Assembly (NCBI GenBank): GCA_937126915.1
Contig: CAKZLM010000107.1
Location: 1 to 35,318, forward strand
DNA: 35,318 nucleotides
Reading direction: 5' to 3'
DNA from: an uncultured Alphaproteobacteria bacterium
GTDB taxonomy: Bacteria; Pseudomonadota; Alphaproteobacteria; Sphingomonadales; SMXR01
The notes beneath the pieces were generated by a model. The model worked only from the letters and a program-made list of their open reading frames with translations. It did not search any database and had not been told where the DNA came from. Shown piece after piece: positions 18,643 through 30,028 of the stretch. The position numbers and the translations under genes are program-made. How positions within the stretch are numbered: position 1 is the stretch's first letter; each line of letters opens with the position of its first letter.

Positions 18643-21600
18643 ATGAAAAAAATTTCATCCATTGCGCTGGCCTTAGCCTTATCAACATCAGGCCTTGCTA
18701 TCAGCCAATCTTTCACTGACAGCGCCAACGCACAAGATTTTAAAGCTTTTGAATATCGTGAAATTGGCCCAACCCGCGGTGGTCGCGTCACCGCCGTTGC
18801 TGGCACCGTTGCTGAAGATGGCACCTTTTATCTAGGTGCCACAGGTGGGGGTGTTTGGAAATCAACCGATTATGGCACGTCTTGGCATAATGTCTCTGAT
18901 GGCTATTTTGCCAGCCCCTCTATTGGTGATATTGCTGTTTCACAGAATGACCCTAATGTCTTATATGTTGGTACCGGTACCGATGGCCTGCGCAGCAACA
19001 TCATTGCTGGTAAGGGGATGTATAAATCCATTGATGGTGGTGAAACGTGGGACCATATCGGCCTAACAGAAACAGGTCATATTGGCGCGGTTGAAATTGA
19101 TCCACGTAACAATAATATTGCTTATGTGGCGGCCATTGGTCAAGCCTTTAATGCCAATGAAGAACGTGGCCTTTATAAGACCACCGATGGCGGCAAGTCT
19201 TGGCAAAAAATTCTTTATATTAGTGATGAAGTTGGCATTTCAGATGTTGAGATGGTGCCCAACAATCCTGACATTTTGTTTGCCACCGCATGGAAAGCAA
19301 AACGCACCCCTTGGACCATCATTAGTGGTGGCAACCAAGACGAAGGCGGCGTTTATAAATCAATTGATGGCGGTGAAAACTGGGTCAAACTTGATGATAA
19401 TGGCCTTCCAACGGGTCTGATCGGTAAGATTGACCTTGCTGTTTCACCCGCTGATTCAAGCGTCGTTGCTGCCTTGGTTGAGGCCCCCGGTGATGTCGGC
19501 GGTCTATATATGTCTTATGACCAAGGTAAAACTTTTGAACATGTCTCAAATGAAGGCGGTATTCGAACCCGTCCTTTCTACTATGCCAACGTTGATCTTG
19601 ATCCCACAGATGCCAACATCGTTTATGTGATGGCGACGGGTTATTATAAATCCACCAATGGCGGTAAGAAATGGCAACGCCTGCGCCCGCCCCATGGTGA
19701 CAGCCATGATATGTGGATCCACCCTGAAAAGCCAAATATGTTCATTCAGGCCAATGATGGTGGTGCCAACGTAACCTTTAATGGCGGTCAAACTTGGACC
19801 AGTCAGTTTAACCAACCAACTGCAGAACTTTATACGGTGGAGGCCGATGACCAATATCCTTATTGGCTGTATGCGGGTCAGCAAGATAACTCAACCACCA
19901 TTGCGGTCCCTAGCAACGCCCCATATGGCAGTCAACATATTGCAGGCTGGATCATGGAAACAGGCGGTTGTGAAACCGGCCCAGCGGTTCCAAAACCGGG
20001 CAACCACAATATTGTTTATGCCAATTGTAAAGGCCGCTTTGGGGTTTATGACAAACGCACAGGCGTTGAAAAATCTTACTATGTTGGTGCCGCAAATCTT
20101 TATGGCCACAATCCGAAAGACTTGAAGCATCGCTTCCAGCGGGTGGCTCCTATTCACGTCTCGCCGCATAATGCTGATGTGGTTTATCATGGCTCGCAAT
20201 ATGTTCATCGTACCACAGACGATGGTGTTACATGGGAAACCATCTCCCCTGACCTAACCGCCAATGATCCTGACAAACAGGTTATTTCAGGCGCGCCGAT
20301 CACCCGCGACATTACTGGTGAGGAATATTATTCAACGCTTTATTCTATCCGCGAAAGCAGCATCGCTGCGGGTGTGATCTGGACAGGTTCCAACGATGGC
20401 GTTGTTGCCGTCACCCGTGACAATGGTGAAACATGGAACAAAGTTACCCCTCGCCGCCTACCAGAGGGTGGCCGTGTAGACAGTGTTGAACCTTCACCAC
20501 ACGATGCCGCTACCGCCTACATCAGCGTGTTACGTTATCAGTTAGGCGACTGGAAGCCATACATCTATAAAACTGATGATTATGGCCGCAGTTGGGACCT
20601 TTTAACCAATGGCCGCAATGGTATTCCCTCAGACCATCCCGTTCGAGTTGTACGTGAAGACCCTGAACGCCAAGGTCTTCTCTATGCAGGTACCGAGTAT
20701 GGTATGTTCATTTCTATGGATGATGGTGAAACTTGGAAGCCTTTCCAACAAAACTTACCAGTCACCCCTGTGACCGATCTTAAGCGTCATCGTGATGACT
20801 TGGTGATGACCACAATGGGCCGAGGCTTCTGGGTGCTGGATAATGTTACCACTATGCACCAAGCCAGCTTTGGTACAGTAGATGCGGGTCAGGCAGCGCT
20901 CTTTAAACCTGCCGACACCATCCGTTACCGTATGCCAAAAGGCCGCTGGGGTGGGTCTGACAGTGTTCCGCAATATCCACGTCCAAGTGTGATCATTGAT
21001 TATCAAATTCCAACAGGCTTTAAAGGGGCTGTGAAGATGGATATCCTTGATAGCAATGGCACTGTGGTCAACACCTTTGTCAATGGCCCTAAGGTTGATG
21101 ACCAAGTGATCAATGATATGAACCTCAGCAGCACCATTTACATTGTGAACCCTGCCTTAAGCACCAAGCCCGGCATAAACCGTTTCCACTGGGATATGAG
21201 CCATCAAGGCCCATGGGACGCCAACCCACGCCGCGCCTACAGCCGTGGCGCCATGGTTACGCCGGGTGATTATACCGTGCGCCTAACTGTCGGTGATAAG
21301 GTTATGTCTGAAAGCTTTAGCTTAAAACCAAACCCAACGGTTGTTAATGCGGGTACCAGCGTTGCTGATATTGAAGAGCAAACCACCCTTGCCTTAAAGG
21401 TAACCGATCTATTGTCAGAGGGGCGTATGTTGGTCGCCAACCTTCAAAAAGAATTGAAGGACGGCAGCACCCGCGAAGCGCAGGTTAAAGCAGCCTTGGA
21501 ACAACTAACCGCCAAACGCATCACCTATCCACAGCCTAAGATCGTTGATCAAATGGGGTATTTATACTTCCAATTCTTAGGCGCTGACCAAAAACCAGGT

Positions 21601-21669
21601 GGTGATATGGTGGCACAATATGAAAACCTAAAAGCGCAGTTTGAAGCAGTAAAAGCCAGCTTGAACTAG
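18643..21669 (+). CDS. Secreted VPS10/sortilin-like Asp-box (BNR) repeat protein 1
   Basis: The 1008-residue precursor has a signal peptide (about 1-30, ending SANAQ). The body (about 35-740) is a beta-propeller of many Asp boxes (S/T-x-D-x-G-x-x-W): for example KSTDYGTSW, KSIDGGETW, KTTDGGKSW, KSIDGGENW, TRDNGETW, KTDDYGRSW and SMDDGETW. The opening GPTRGGRVTAVAG is typical of bacterial sortilin N-terminal/VPS10-domain proteins, often annotated as glycosyl hydrolases. The last 260 residues hold a beta domain (FHWDMSHQGPW) and a helical tail. No catalytic residues can be assigned; ligand binding or peptide/carbohydrate processing in the periplasm are possible. It is a paralogue of the 24371-27517 protein. 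The gene is monocistronic, with the terminator at 21703. Confidence 0.88.
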   Translation: MKKISSIALALALSTSGLAISQSFTDSANAQDFKAFEYREIGPTRGGRVTAVAGTVAEDGTFYLGATGGGVWKSTDYGTSWHNVSDGYFASPSIGDIAVSQNDPNVLYVGTGTDGLRSNIIAGKGMYKSIDGGETWDHIGLTETGHIGAVEIDPRNNNIAYVAAIGQAFNANEERGLYKTTDGGKSWQKILYISDEVGISDVEMVPNNPDILFATAWKAKRTPWTIISGGNQDEGGVYKSIDGGENWVKLDDNGLPTGLIGKIDLAVSPADSSVVAALVEAPGDVGGLYMSYDQGKTFEHVSNEGGIRTRPFYYANVDLDPTDANIVYVMATGYYKSTNGGKKWQRLRPPHGDSHDMWIHPEKPNMFIQANDGGANVTFNGGQTWTSQFNQPTAELYTVEADDQYPYWLYAGQQDNSTTIAVPSNAPYGSQHIAGWIMETGGCETGPAVPKPGNHNIVYANCKGRFGVYDKRTGVEKSYYVGAANLYGHNPKDLKHRFQRVAPIHVSPHNADVVYHGSQYVHRTTDDGVTWETISPDLTANDPDKQVISGAPITRDITGEEYYSTLYSIRESSIAAGVIWTGSNDGVVAVTRDNGETWNKVTPRRLPEGGRVDSVEPSPHDAATAYISVLRYQLGDWKPYIYKTDDYGRSWDLLTNGRNGIPSDHPVRVVREDPERQGLLYAGTEYGMFISMDDGETWKPFQQNLPVTPVTDLKRHRDDLVMTTMGRGFWVLDNVTTMHQASFGTVDAGQAALFKPADTIRYRMPKGRWGGSDSVPQYPRPSVIIDYQIPTGFKGAVKMDILDSNGTVVNTFVNGPKVDDQVINDMNLSSTIYIVNPALSTKPGINRFHWDMSHQGPWDANPRRAYSRGAMVTPGDYTVRLTVGDKVMSESFSLKPNPTVVNAGTSVADIEEQTTLALKVTDLLSEGRMLVANLQKELKDGSTREAQVKAALEQLTAKRITYPQPKIVDQMGYLYFQFLGADQKPGGDMVAQYENLKAQFEAVKASLN

Positions 21670-24370: not shown

Positions 24371-27300
24371 CTATTGACGCACCACCATCACACCATTTGC
24401 CATGGCCCAATCGTTGATAGCTTTTAGCTCACCATTGATAATGGCATCACGGGATGCGGCATGGCCTTGCCACTGGGTTGATAAATCCTCCCAACGCTTA
24501 ACAGCCCCTGCGGTAACAGGTGGACCAGCACGGTCAAGAGCATCCAACAAATGTCGCACTTGGAAATCAAACATTGATGGCCAACTATCCTCATCCTCAT
24601 AGGCGCGGAACAACACTTGGGTGATTTCATTTTCCCATGCCGTGATTTTCTCAACCGCCGCACGGCCATTGCTGTGTAATTCATCAGCGTCATATTCATC
24701 CATTAATTGCTGAACCATGGTACGTGATTGGCGCAACCCATCAAGATCGCCCAATAACTGGTTCATCAATCCCATGGCTTGGTCCATGCGCATGGCAAGG
24801 TCATCATATTCTTGCTGGCTTGCTTCAATCCTTGGATCAGGGGCCACAGTGAAAGATACCGATTGCTGCATACCATCAACGCTGATGGTGGCAGAATAAT
24901 CACCCGGCACCACCGTCGGTCCTCCATAACCCGCAAAGATACGAATATCCGGAATACAAATGGTGCCAGCCTTGCGCATGTCCCACGTCCAGCTATTCAT
25001 GCCTTTTTTGGTGCTTGGATAGCTATATGTACGCTCAAGACGTGGCGGTGTGTTGGCGATCATACAACGGTCGCGATCGCTCTCTGCGCTTTCGTAGGTG
25101 CGGATTACCTCGCCTGCAGCATTTTTAATGTCGATGGTTAGTGGCCCCTTAGCGTCTTCTTTTAAGAAATAACTAAAGTGAACACCACTGGCAGGGTTAG
25201 CCCCACGAATGCCAGAGCCACCGCCACCGGTGCGCATTAAGCTGTTATCGCCAGAGACAAATAAGGCCAAGTCAGCCTTACTTTCATCGCCTTTAATATC
25301 TTGCAAATAAGTCAAATCATCCATCACCCAAAAGCCACGACCTTGTGTCGCAGCAATAAGATCACCTTGTCTGATCTTCAGGTCGGTGATGGGCACAGGT
25401 GGCAAGTTCAGCTTTAAAGACTGCCAATTTTTACCATCGTCAAAAGACACAAACATTTCCTTTTCACCACCAGCATAAAGAAGCCCTTGGCGAACAGTAT
25501 CTTCACGTACCACCCGCACAAAGGTGTCTTGCGGCAGGCCCTTATCAATCCGCTTCCAGCTTTTGCCATAGTTGGTGGTTTTATAAATATACGGGCGGAA
25601 GTCACCCATCTTATATGCCGTGATGGTGATATAAGCAGTTGCGGCATCATGCTTTGACACCTCAATGGCGTTGATCATGCCTTCAGGCGCGCCGCGGGGT
25701 GTAACATTATCCCAAGATTGGCCCTCATCACGGGTCAGATGCACCAAGCCATCATCACTGCCCACCCACAACACGTCTTTTTCATGCATCGATGGTTTGA
25801 TATAAAAAATGGTGCCATAATATTCAGCGCCCACACTTTCATTGGTGATAGGGCCACCGTTTATACCTTGGTATTCTTTATTATTGCGGGTTAGGTCACC
25901 GCTAATTTCAGTCCATGTCACACCACGATCCGATGTTTTCATTAACTTATGCGAACCATAATAAATGATGCTTGGGTCATGCGGGTTGGCCGCAACAGGG
26001 GCATTCCAGTTGGCACGGTGCTCAATATCCTCTGCCGCGCGCCCAAAGACATATTCAGGGTAAGGCTTAATCGGGCGGGTACGTTTTGTTACCGTATCAA
26101 ACTCGGTCAAGGTATTGTTGATGGTGGTGGCATAAATGAACCGCGGGTTATCAGGATCAAAGGCAATATGGGCACTTTCACCGCCGCCCACAGCAAAGAA
26201 ATCCTCAGCCCCGATACCGTTTCTAAAGGTTTGGTTTAACATTGCTACGGTGGTGTTATCTTGCTGGCCCGCATAAATGCGATAAGGCATTTGGTTATCG
26301 GTTTTGACCCGATAAAATTGTGCCGTTGGTTGGTTATAAATACTTGACCAGCTTTTACCACCATCAAAGGTTACCGTGGCCCCACCATCATTGGCATTGA
26401 TCATGTTTTTGCTGTTTTCAGGATTAATCCAATGATCATGATGGTCACTGTGGGGGGTCCGCAAAATGTCATAGGTTTTACCGCCATCGGTGGACTTCAT
26501 GAAGGTTACGTTTGAGACATAAACCGTTTCAGGGTCCGATGGATCAGCAGTTATGCGGTTATAATACCACGGGCGTGACTGCACCAAACGTGACGTGCTC
26601 ATCAGTGACCAGTTTTCACCAAAGTCATCACTGCGGTAAACACCGCCTTTGCCTTCTTCGGCTTCAACCACGGCATAAACCCGTGATGGCTGGCTAGCAA
26701 CCACATCCACACCAATTTTACCCACCAAGGTAGGCAAGCCACTGGTCAGCTTGTTCCATGTTTCGCCGCCATCGGTGGATTTAAAGATGCCGCCATCGGT
26801 GCCGCCTGATTTGATATACCATGGCTTGCGGCCATTTTCCCACATTGCTGCATAAAGAATGCGCGGGTTGGTCGGATCAATGGCTAGTTCAGCTGCCCCT
26901 ACATCGGGCGCAACTTTTAACACATGGGTCCAAGTTTTACCGCCATCGGTGGTTTTGAAAACACCGCGATTTTCATTTTCCACCCAAATTTGCCCTTGGG
27001 CGGCAACCCATGCCACATCAGGGTTGGTGGGATGAATACGAATGCGTGATATTTGACCAACGGTTTCGAGGCCAATGCGCTGCCATGTTTTACCGGCATC
27101 GGTGGACTTATACATGCCATCGCCATCACTGGTGGTCACACCACGAATGGGCGCCTCACCCGTGCCCGCATACAGCACATTAATATCAGACGGTGCCACC
27201 GCAACCGCCCCAATGGTGCCAACGCCAAAATATTTATCACTGATGTTTTGCCATGAAAGACCCGCGTTTTCGGTTTTCCAAATGCCACCGCCTGTGGCCC

Positions 27301-27517
27301 CCATATAATAAAGCTGATCATTGCCCGGAACACCCGCCACCGTGGTCACACGACCACCGCGAAACGGCCCAACAAAGCGCCATTTTTTGGCCTTTAACAA
27401 TTCTGGATCAACCACATCTTTGGCATGGCCCTCAAGCGGTTGAGACACACCAACCAGCGCCAATGACGCCACCAACAGCGCACGAACGGCACCGGCCTTA
27501 ACTTTACCGAAAAACAT
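24371..27517 (-). CDS. Secreted VPS10/sortilin-like Asp-box (BNR) repeat protein 2
   Basis: The 1048-residue precursor has a signal peptide (about 1-33, ending GHAKD). It carries Asp boxes along a propeller of about 700 residues: KTENAGLSW, KSTDAGKTW, KTTDGGKTW, KSTDGGETW, RSDDFGENW, KTSDRGVTW, TRDEGQSW, KTTNYGKSW and SFDDGKNW. The opening KKWRFVGPFRGGRVTTVAG and the segment HSDHHDHWINPENSKNMINA parallel the first protein, so the two are paralogues, though clearly diverged. The C-terminal 250 residues form a beta domain then a long helical region. Ribosome site GGAGGGGGAG lies close before ATG 27517. No catalytic site can be assigned; periplasmic or surface ligand binding is the safest statement. 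Confidence 0.88.
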   Translation of the reverse strand: MFFGKVKAGAVRALLVASLALVGVSQPLEGHAKDVVDPELLKAKKWRFVGPFRGGRVTTVAGVPGNDQLYYMGATGGGIWKTENAGLSWQNISDKYFGVGTIGAVAVAPSDINVLYAGTGEAPIRGVTTSDGDGMYKSTDAGKTWQRIGLETVGQISRIRIHPTNPDVAWVAAQGQIWVENENRGVFKTTDGGKTWTHVLKVAPDVGAAELAIDPTNPRILYAAMWENGRKPWYIKSGGTDGGIFKSTDGGETWNKLTSGLPTLVGKIGVDVVASQPSRVYAVVEAEEGKGGVYRSDDFGENWSLMSTSRLVQSRPWYYNRITADPSDPETVYVSNVTFMKSTDGGKTYDILRTPHSDHHDHWINPENSKNMINANDGGATVTFDGGKSWSSIYNQPTAQFYRVKTDNQMPYRIYAGQQDNTTVAMLNQTFRNGIGAEDFFAVGGGESAHIAFDPDNPRFIYATTINNTLTEFDTVTKRTRPIKPYPEYVFGRAAEDIEHRANWNAPVAANPHDPSIIYYGSHKLMKTSDRGVTWTEISGDLTRNNKEYQGINGGPITNESVGAEYYGTIFYIKPSMHEKDVLWVGSDDGLVHLTRDEGQSWDNVTPRGAPEGMINAIEVSKHDAATAYITITAYKMGDFRPYIYKTTNYGKSWKRIDKGLPQDTFVRVVREDTVRQGLLYAGGEKEMFVSFDDGKNWQSLKLNLPPVPITDLKIRQGDLIAATQGRGFWVMDDLTYLQDIKGDESKADLALFVSGDNSLMRTGGGGSGIRGANPASGVHFSYFLKEDAKGPLTIDIKNAAGEVIRTYESAESDRDRCMIANTPPRLERTYSYPSTKKGMNSWTWDMRKAGTICIPDIRIFAGYGGPTVVPGDYSATISVDGMQQSVSFTVAPDPRIEASQQEYDDLAMRMDQAMGLMNQLLGDLDGLRQSRTMVQQLMDEYDADELHSNGRAAVEKITAWENEITQVLFRAYEDEDSWPSMFDFQVRHLLDALDRAGPPVTAGAVKRWEDLSTQWQGHAASRDAIINGELKAINDWAMANGVMVVRQ

Positions 27518-27653
27518 AAATGCTCCCCCTCCATCAACAAAAACTGGAAAACAGAGTGAGCCTTAACCCCCAAAAGATCAAGCGGAAAAAGACAGTAAGA
27601 GGAAACATATGGATTATATTTTTATGCAAATAACCTATTTGATTATTTTTAAC

Positions 27654-27682
27654 TTGACACCGTCACGGACCTTTGCCATACT
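27654..27682 (+). promoter_or_regulatory. Near-consensus sigma-70 promoter of the candidate sRNA
   Basis: TTGACA (27654-27659) and CATACT (27677-27682, four of six to consensus) are exactly 17 bases apart. AT-rich sequence directly upstream could act as an UP element. Transcription would start near 27688. Confidence 0.65.
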
Positions 27683-27687
27683 TCTCA

Positions 27688-27742
27688 CATGTCTTCTAAA
27701 AGGCATAGATCATAAAGTCGCTCTCTCTGAGCGGCTTTTTTT
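27688..27742 (+). ncRNA. Candidate small RNA of about 55 nt
   Basis: Directly after the promoter come a hairpin, ATGTCTT with AAGGCAT around CTAA (27689-27706, one G-U pair), and a terminator hairpin, AAAGTCGCTC with GAGCGGCTTT (27714-27723 with 27729-27738, one G-U pair), then T7 (27736-27742). Promoter, two stems and terminator fit tightly together with no room for a protein. It could instead be a leader with an attenuator for the gene at 27855, which is 112 bases beyond the terminator. No known RNA family is recognised. Confidence 0.55.
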
Positions 27743-27854
27743 ATGAGAAAAATCAACCCGATAACCCAATCAACCCAACACGCACCCTTTTGGCCATCAC
27801 GCCAACGGTGTCTTTAACTGTGCCCTAATCACATGGGCAGAAAGAGAAAATAAT

Positions 27855-28772
27855 ATGTCTCAGCTTAAAGTGAATAAACCTGTTGGTAAAAACTGTTATC
27901 CAGATCCGACAGATGTCATGATTGTACAAACGTGCCTTCAAAATATTAAAGCCAAAACAAAGTTTGGTATGAAGCCAATTTGGCAAGGCAAGATTGATGG
28001 CAAAAACAGCAAAGAACTGGCCTGTGCCATAGAAAACTTCCAAACCATAGAAGGATTGAAAGTAACAGGAAAGGTTGAAGCATTTAGCGGTCAAACCTTT
28101 TCAAAACTCAAACAAAGAACACCTACATCCGTATTAAATAAATTGGTTAGCGACCCTTACATGGGCGATTTACCTAATGAACACGTCTTTTACAAAAAAC
28201 AGAAAAAGCTAAAATCTTTAATCCAGTCTATCAGTTCCCTTCCTCATCATTCAGTTGGGCAATATCTTGTAGACTTCTGGAAAACTCTTAAAGAACTTGG
28301 AGACCCAATAGCAGATACCGCATTAGACATTCATTACAGACGTCATTGGGGTATACAAGCCATTAACCGATTATATCATTATTTAGGTGATAGATATTTT
28401 GAGAAATTCCCTCCTCACCCAAAAGAATTAGAAACAATTCGCCTAGATGCAAATACATATATCAAGTTACCAAACGAAATATGGCGAAGGAAACAAAATG
28501 AATGGATTGAAGAACAGGTCAGACATATTCAGATTGCAGTAGCGGTAGAACACTGGAACGAAGCTGCTAAAGATTTGAAAAACATTAAAGGTAAATTAAA
28601 CCCTGACCAGATAACAACGTATCACCATGATGTTTTTGACAGATTTGGTCTTCCTCCTGAGGCTTTCGGGGGAACGCCTTTCAATTCAGACACCAATGAT
28701 TGGTTTAACAAATTTTTGGCGACCAAGGTTTGGTGTAAGGAGTGTGATATTGTTGAAAAGATTGATGAATAA
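27855..28772 (+). CDS. Protein with N-terminal peptidoglycan-binding-like domain, rest unknown
   Basis: The 305-residue protein has an N-terminal segment (about 7-90) that follows the PG_binding_1 pattern: KPVGKNCYPDPTDVMIVQTCL, then a GKIDGKNSKELACAIENFQ helix pair and EGLKVTGKVEAFSGQTFSKL. This version, starting at the very N terminus with no signal peptide, is the one found on secretion-system cargo proteins and phage-type cell-wall enzymes. Residues 95-305 are alpha-helical, rich in His, Trp and aromatics (ALDIHYRRHWGIQAINRLYHYLG), and match no family I know; no cell-wall hydrolase active site is evident. The ribosome site is weak. A terminator-like hairpin follows at 28794. A secreted effector is one guess; a cytoplasmic role cannot be excluded. 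Confidence 0.65.
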   Translation: MSQLKVNKPVGKNCYPDPTDVMIVQTCLQNIKAKTKFGMKPIWQGKIDGKNSKELACAIENFQTIEGLKVTGKVEAFSGQTFSKLKQRTPTSVLNKLVSDPYMGDLPNEHVFYKKQKKLKSLIQSISSLPHHSVGQYLVDFWKTLKELGDPIADTALDIHYRRHWGIQAINRLYHYLGDRYFEKFPPHPKELETIRLDANTYIKLPNEIWRRKQNEWIEEQVRHIQIAVAVEHWNEAAKDLKNIKGKLNPDQITTYHHDVFDRFGLPPEAFGGTPFNSDTNDWFNKFLATKVWCKECDIVEKIDE

Positions 28773-28793
28773 ATAGGTTTTCTAACCAATGCA

Positions 28794-28834
28794 TTTCAGG
28801 GTAGCATAAAACCTACCCTGAAACACACTTTTTT
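28794..28834 (+). terminator. Terminator after the PG-binding-like gene
   Basis: Perfect 11-bp stem TTTCAGGGTAG / CTACCCTGAAA (28794-28804 with 28813-28823), 8-nt loop. The T6 run begins five bases after the stem (28829-28834), so strength may be moderate. It lies 21 bases past the stop. Confidence 0.7.
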
Positions 28835-28921
28835 AGAACATCATAGTGAGTTATTTCCCTTTACTTTAGAAATCACAATTCCTAGTATGACTATTCATGT
28901 TCAACAAATTGAATACTATAA

Positions 28922-30028
28922 ATGAAATATGTGAATAAGCACTTGATTCCTATAATTACGTGGATCGTTTCTACATTGGTAGGAACAGGCTTTCTTTACC
29001 TTCAGTTCCTTAATATCGAAGAAATCCCTTATGTCTCCTTTGCACCATTATCTTCCGTGTCAGTTTTTATCACATGGATCATTTTACTGCCTTACTTACT
29101 AAGATCCGTAACTATAGAAAATGAAGAGGAAAAAGGGTCTTTTTCCATTCAAATGGTCGGAACTCATTTATTTCTGGATTTCATGATTTGGGGCATTGCC
29201 CTGCCTATAATCGGCGTCGTTTATTTCATGAACTTATCCTCATGGATTGGTTACATATTTTTATATATCTATACTTATAAGTTCTTAACAAACGGTCATA
29301 ATGAAAATGTTTGGGGCCTTATCAGGCCAGTTTTATTTAGTGTATCTGTGATTAGCGGCGCCGTTATTTACCTGCATCAGGGCGTTAAATGGCATTCAGT
29401 TCTTAATTATTGTTCCCCTATTACTAAAACACATGGCATGTGGAGCCAGTTTCAGGCCTATCCTGAGGATATCATATATACCCTTTTTCACGAAAAACCG
29501 ATTGGGGAACAAATTAATCAATTTCAGACTTATAAAATTGACCAAGAATACCTTCAAAAGCACAGGCCTGATTTAGCTGTAATAGCAACATATTTTAGAT
29601 TAAATGAACTTAATGATGGTGCACTTTATGGTTCGGCATCGCAAATATTGAAGGGTGTCATGGAACATGAAAATATAGCATTTTCAGAACTAACAACACA
29701 TATTCTTATCGCAAACCCTGATAATGAAAGCCAAAAATTATATGGCAAACTTGAGGGTGATCAGTATTCAATTTATTCTGCCAATATAAAGGGAGCACCA
29801 CATCCTAATTCGGTTAGATATTTAGGTTTTTGTTATAGCCTACCTGACTATCACCCAGATTTTGACGCTAATTTAAATGCTGGTTATGAAATTCAAAAGT
29901 TATGTTCCCTTGCATATGATCTCGGGCCAATTAAAATTTCCTACCACATCAAAATAGATGATTTATTCTCCTATAAAGAGGTTGAGGCCTTTTTAACAGA
30001 AACATTAATTTGCGATGTGAATATGTAA
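28922..30028 (+). CDS. Five-helix membrane protein of unknown function
   Basis: No family is recognised. The 368-residue protein has five predicted transmembrane segments in its N-terminal 150 residues (about 9-29, 41-60, 83-103, 105-122 and 134-151), followed by a soluble domain of about 215 residues with repeated short strands (ILIANPDNESQKLYGKLEGD, SVRYLGFCYSLPDYHPDF). There is no signal peptide other than the first helix. The start ATG 28922 lacks a recognisable ribosome site, so expression may be weak or the start uncertain. It is AT-rich. It lies 149 bases after the PG-binding-like gene, in the same direction but past a terminator; a toxin/immunity-like pairing is possible but unsupported by known families. 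Confidence 0.65.
   Translation: MKYVNKHLIPIITWIVSTLVGTGFLYLQFLNIEEIPYVSFAPLSSVSVFITWIILLPYLLRSVTIENEEEKGSFSIQMVGTHLFLDFMIWGIALPIIGVVYFMNLSSWIGYIFLYIYTYKFLTNGHNENVWGLIRPVLFSVSVISGAVIYLHQGVKWHSVLNYCSPITKTHGMWSQFQAYPEDIIYTLFHEKPIGEQINQFQTYKIDQEYLQKHRPDLAVIATYFRLNELNDGALYGSASQILKGVMEHENIAFSELTTHILIANPDNESQKLYGKLEGDQYSIYSANIKGAPHPNSVRYLGFCYSLPDYHPDFDANLNAGYEIQKLCSLAYDLGPIKISYHIKIDDLFSYKEVEAFLTETLICDVNM

Follow-up and report, generated by a model that had tools for sequence, protein, structure and literature searches.

In Caulobacter, GafZ, the antiterminator for a gene transfer agent (GTA), which is a domesticated phage, binds an inverted repeat located between the −10 and −35 elements of its promoter and bypasses terminators in a manner like that of lambda Q (PMC11150451). 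GafZ shares homology with the C-terminal portion of GafA, whose homologues are annotated under DUF6456, and its antitermination activity was described in 2024 for one promoter in one species. For lysis by the Caulobacter GTA, no lysis gene was found (PMC9632790). Here we analyzed a 35,318-nucleotide stretch of DNA from an uncultured alphaproteobacterium (the window), and we think it likely that the unit at 27654-27742 is a satellite promoter of the GTA regulon with a built-in terminator, placed 5′ of a PG_binding-domain gene at 27855 and controlled by DUF6456-type antitermination. The regulation that we propose is drawn from sequence elements that recur at three loci in this genome and in the GTA clusters of relatives, together with a single DUF6456 gene, and it is from these that we infer the transcription start, termination, antitermination and the pairing of proteins with sites.

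An earlier note had described a TTGACA-17-CATACT promoter at this location, with a hairpin at the transcription start and a U-tract terminator in a gene-free stretch, and each of these features is present. The −35 element TTGACA (27654-27659, + strand, as are all elements of the unit) is separated by a 17-bp spacer, CCGTCACGGACCTTTGC (27660-27676), from the −10 element CATACT (27677-27682), which is extended by a TG at 27674-27675. The positions of the −35 and −10 elements predict that transcription starts at 27689, and the nascent RNA is predicted to fold from this base into a 5′ hairpin (27689-27706, AUGUCUU-CUAA-AAGGCAU, 7 bp with loop CTAA). A single-stranded linker of 7 nt (27707-27713) leads from this hairpin to an intrinsic terminator that is the candidate built-in stop (27714-27742, with a 10-bp stem and U7; stem-loop 27714-27738, T7 27736-27742). 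When RNA 27689-27742 was folded, it gave −19.6 kcal/mol with a z of −5.2, and 0 of 200 shuffles were as good; pair probabilities in the terminator are 0.94-1.0, and 0.72 for the outermost pair. The 5′ untranslated region from the terminator to the start codon of 27855 spans 27743-27854 (+), and no second good promoter was found in this interval.

The unit occupies a gene-free interval between a divergent BNR/sortilin gene (starting at 27517, − strand) and the gene at 27855 (+), and the GC content drops here from about 48% to 36%, with the unit at the edge of a 36% GC patch. This 2.8-Mb genome encodes nine BNR/sortilin-like proteins with lengths of about 700-1100 aa, two of them in the window (24371-27517 and 18643-21669) and the others on contigs C142, C5, C19, C37, C61, C95 and C31; the homologues found in other phyla are too distant for a comparison of upstream regions. 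The real window contains one TTGACA-type promoter with a terminator after it, versus 0.55 per shuffled window (maximum 3), and the bare architecture of promoter plus terminator is within chance and not significant. The unit is significant because its operator and its spacer are conserved.

The candidate GTA-regulon operator, AATAACCTATTTGATTATT, was identified by matrix match at 27629-27647 and is a TAACC-N5-G[G/A]TTA dyad in which one base of the second half-site is altered (GATTA for GGTTA). A gap of 6 bp separates it from the −35 element that lies downstream, as at the genome's own GTA promoter. With a matrix built from GTA-cluster sites, this operator is the top match of the whole window, with a score of 19.0 versus 8.4 for the next. 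The matrix used to scan the genome itself was trained on the GTA clusters of four other genomes with this genome excluded, and with it the site ranks second in 403 kb of the genome. Among the operator matches with a TTGAC −35 element after them, three of the four strongest are the genome's own GTA locus (contig C33), the locus studied here (contig C107) and a paralogous locus on contig C79. In the relatives that were read, TAACC-N5-GGTTA, at some sites with small changes, is located twice between the repressor gene and the DUF6456 gene and once immediately 5′ of the −35 element of the GTA promoter. We propose that the operator would be bound by a regulator of the GTA cluster, which is probably the Xre-type repressor encoded divergently from the DUF6456 gene.

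The spacer contains the palindrome CCGTCACGG (27660-27668) between the −35 and −10 elements, and we consider this spacer to be a candidate binding element for a GafZ-type antiterminator. It is identical at 14 of 17 positions to the spacer of L158, where the promoter lies before RcGTA-type head genes, and at 13 of 17 to the C79 spacer, GCGTCACGGTCCTGTGG, which itself matches the spacer of L157 at 16 of 17. Two IMG/VR contigs also carry the palindrome, in both cases 5′ of RcGTA-type head genes. A GTA-promoter matrix trained only on the family gives 27654 as the best 29-mer of the window (16.8 versus 10.6); the spacer alone is modest with the same training, as 0.2% of positions score equally well, and in register with the genome's own GTA promoter it shares mainly the right half, CTTTGC. 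In another viral contig (L156, 115-185), tandem partial copies of TTGACACCGTCACG are found beside a small-protein gene, and this contig may be another user of the spacer element.

The genome has one DUF6456 gene (G000:C33:25875-26282, E 2e-37), located beside an RcGTA-type cluster whose capsid matches the RcGTA capsid 6tb9 (4e-93), and among 14 control genomes DUF6456 was found in Caulobacter only. The order on C33 is Xre-type repressor, paired operators, DUF6456, operator, TTGACA promoter, terminator, terminase, protease, capsid and tail genes, and the GTA leader of 142 nt ends in the terminator. In a genome of the same family, a related promoter is located between a DUF6456 gene (2e-48) and the terminase genes. 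The promoter pattern was found in four IMG/VR contigs, and in L157 and L158 the promoter is followed about 115-120 nt downstream by a terminator and then by terminase/portal/capsid genes; the L157 capsid (3e-93) and the L158 portal (2e-121) match RcGTA structures. A relaxed spacer pattern matched 53 viral contigs, nearly all by chance, and promoter context together with a terminator was present only in L157 and L158. The viral search pattern was derived from two paralogous loci, and what is independent in these matches is the location, the terminators and the extra matching bases only. A U-tract terminator is not obvious at the GTA promoter of every relative, several of the comparisons rest on few sequences, and the genome itself is in 176 contigs; its DUF6456 gene and RcGTA-type cluster are suggestive of an alphaproteobacterium. 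As for the arrangement of the GTA genes, they appear dispersed in this bacterial family (L215, L216-L220): G003 and G006 have terminase and portal followed by host genes, and this genome has terminase, protease, capsid and tail genes together, with no portal seen between terminase and protease.

A whole-genome search with the promoter pattern returned exactly two loci, C79 and the one studied here. Their upstream regions are homologous, with an alignment score of 43 versus at most 34 in 2000 shuffles, and the order on G000:C79 is an AT-rich operator region, CTTGAC, the spacer, a 5′ hairpin that differs in sequence from hairpin 1 of our locus, a terminator and a PG_binding gene. The candidate regulated gene at our locus (27855-28772, +) encodes 305 aa with an N-terminal PG_binding-like domain, which is common to 9 paralogues or homologues in the family, with paralogues both in this genome and in two related genera, and a lineage-specific C terminus. 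Searches of PADLOC, PHROGs and the PDB with 27855 gave nothing useful, and NCBIfam gave only matches far below curated cut-offs. A second terminator-like hairpin (28794-28823, +) separates 27855 from the gene at 28922-30028 (+), which encodes a 368-aa protein with a hydrophobic N terminus and no family, and for which we infer a possible function as an immunity-like partner. Structures predicted without an alignment were unusable (pLDDT 37 for 27855 and 40 for 28922).

The genes with this N terminus form a polymorphic family (window 27855-30028, L221 1-2496, L233 2-1623, L231 12170-13462, L034, L035, L037 and L041), in which the common PG_binding-like N terminus is joined to differing C termini. 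Judged by eye, these C termini are transglycosylase-like in C79, M23-peptidase-like in G003 and a hydrophobic segment in C64, where a second, partial cassette of the middle domain is present as well, and at some of the loci small membrane or exported proteins come next downstream. From these sequences, the family resembles a toxin/immunity system that acts on the cell wall and is linked to the GTA operator. The C79 member has an in-frame stop (L233, between 957 and 1069) and the C64 member a frame break (L221, around 544-668), each of which is either a broken gene or an assembly error. Contig C64 starts exactly at the start codon, so the upstream leader is missing, and a stretch of about 60 nt at this start is identical to C79. 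Other family members (C29, i.e., L231 13467-13544, and G003; upstream regions of L034, L037 and L041) have a TAACC-N5-GG operator 5′ of the −35 element and no terminator, often with an operator at the start codon too; altogether there are 12 sites in nine upstream regions versus 0.4 expected. These loci may form another class of promoter within the regulon.

By analogy with GafZ, we propose that the locus is controlled by a processive antiterminator of the GafZ type that is loaded at the promoter, rather than by an RNA switch. Transcription from near 27689 would halt at the terminator that ends at 27742 and give a leader RNA of about 54 nt. Once the GTA program is on, the DUF6456 protein (of the GafZ/GafA C-terminal type) would use the palindromic spacer to load onto RNA polymerase, and the loaded polymerase would ignore the terminator, so that 27855 and possibly 28922 would be expressed. 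To reach 28922, polymerase modified in this way would need to get through the hairpin at 28794-28823 as well.

A simpler account has the operator and its repressor do all of the regulating, with the terminator as an incidental control of leakage and the likeness of the spacers as the second half of an operator. The operator is indeed the strongest element shared among the loci, the promoters of C29 and G003 carry operators with no terminator, and with a −35 element as close to consensus as TTGACA, the promoter has no obvious need for an activator. Nevertheless, we regard this account as unlikely: a terminator is present at all three readable loci of this genome that have the operator-promoter-gene layout and the GTA-type spacer (C33, C79 and C107), L157 and L158 have one as well, and without antitermination the gene would be barely expressible from the promoter studied here.

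Termination or read-through could instead be set in cis, as in a classical attenuator that responds to RNA structure, to a ligand or to translation of a leader peptide, and there are signs that might be read in this way. The predicted start is an ATG that opens an 8-codon ATG-TAA frame, MSSKRHRS (27689-27715), whose stop touches the terminator, and an ATG is also found near the start of the C79 leader. However, these mini-ORFs have no sequence in common, no such frame opens the genome's own GTA leader, and the fold of the 182-nt leader contains no antiterminator pairing that competes with the terminator, whose pairs, the outermost excepted, are nearly always formed. The conserved elements belong to the DNA 5′ of the start site rather than to the RNA, and we consider such an attenuator improbable. 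As a candidate of its own, the leaderless mini-ORF MSSKRHRS was rejected because it is not conserved.

The earlier note had offered two functions for the unit, a novel sRNA or an attenuator for the gene at 27855. The second is supported in the form of antitermination, and the first, as a free-standing sRNA, is not. A search of Rfam with the 54-nt RNA gave zero matches, the RNA is single copy in its own genome, and no RNA homologue was found in 7 genomes of the family or in 398 of the order. A covariance model built from the single sequence did match in 45 of these 398 genomes. In the best alignments, the terminator alone is kept, and nearly all of the matches shown have a disrupted or absent hairpin 1. 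The covariation of both stems in relatives that the note had proposed as a check is not seen, and what the matches retain is a generic terminator. DNA homology searches of the genome itself, its family and order, and phage and plasmid sequences likewise yielded no more than generic GCCGCTC..GAGCGGC terminators and matches by chance. The orphan RNA sequence argues against an established sRNA. A module that is a GTA-regulon promoter making a trans-acting sRNA, with 27855 transcribed from another promoter, is as doubtful as the attenuator, since the compact unit, its good fold and a terminator that is efficient on paper are set against a unique RNA sequence, a hairpin 1 that differs in the paralogous leader, a linker with just 7 nt single-stranded and a module that is always positioned 5′ of a gene. 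From the GafZ precedent, the palindrome in the spacer and the terminator right after it, the 54-nt RNA is probably an aborted leader.

Under our preferred reading of promoter-loaded antitermination, an orphan unit of promoter, hairpin and terminator may be a control point for read-through and not an sRNA gene. The locus also suggests a modular cassette, made up of operator, antiterminator-loading promoter and terminator, that can be installed upstream of satellite genes, and its sequence signatures can be used to find the rest of the GTA regulon. PG_binding satellite genes under a GTA switch, with paralogues that have transglycosylase-like or M23-like parts, are direct candidates for lysis genes elsewhere. 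More tentatively, and as a possibility that we do not favor strongly, GTA antitermination might also control a dispersed set of polymorphic genes for cell-wall toxin-like proteins with immunity-like partners, each gene kept silent by its own terminator, which would couple GTA release to lysis or to the killing of non-kin.

Among described systems, the Rhodobacter capsulatus GTA resembles the present one in that GafA, a regulator with a DUF6456 domain, acts on the GTA cluster and on satellite cell-wall/lysis genes from dispersed promoters, and both the capsid of our genome and the L158 portal are RcGTA-type; GafA, however, is a longer fused protein, and neither a terminator nor antitermination has been demonstrated in that system. 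The arrangement of lambda pR′-tR′ with Q (also Q21 and Pseudomonas AlpA) is similar in having the loading site embedded in the promoter and a short terminated leader RNA (cf. lambda 6S RNA), with downstream genes on only after antitermination. The candidate factor here is a DUF6456 protein, and GafZ, its Caulobacter relative, resembles neither Q nor AlpA in sequence or structure according to its authors. PgtaT of Caulobacter crescentus has a palindrome between −35 and −10, a terminator downstream and a long untranslated leader (PMC11150451), and in both organisms the genome contains a DUF6456/GafZ gene and the GTA cluster is under the same kind of promoter. The two differ in that the Caulobacter GafZ element, GCGCCCG-CTGGCGC, does not have the sequence of our palindrome, the repressor RogA is LexA-like with a different motif, and the near-consensus −35 element and the operator TAACC-N5-GGTTA are features of the present locus. 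Finally, the terminator in Caulobacter comes after gtaT and GafZ has a single target, whereas here the terminator directly follows a short leader and the proposed targets include satellite genes.
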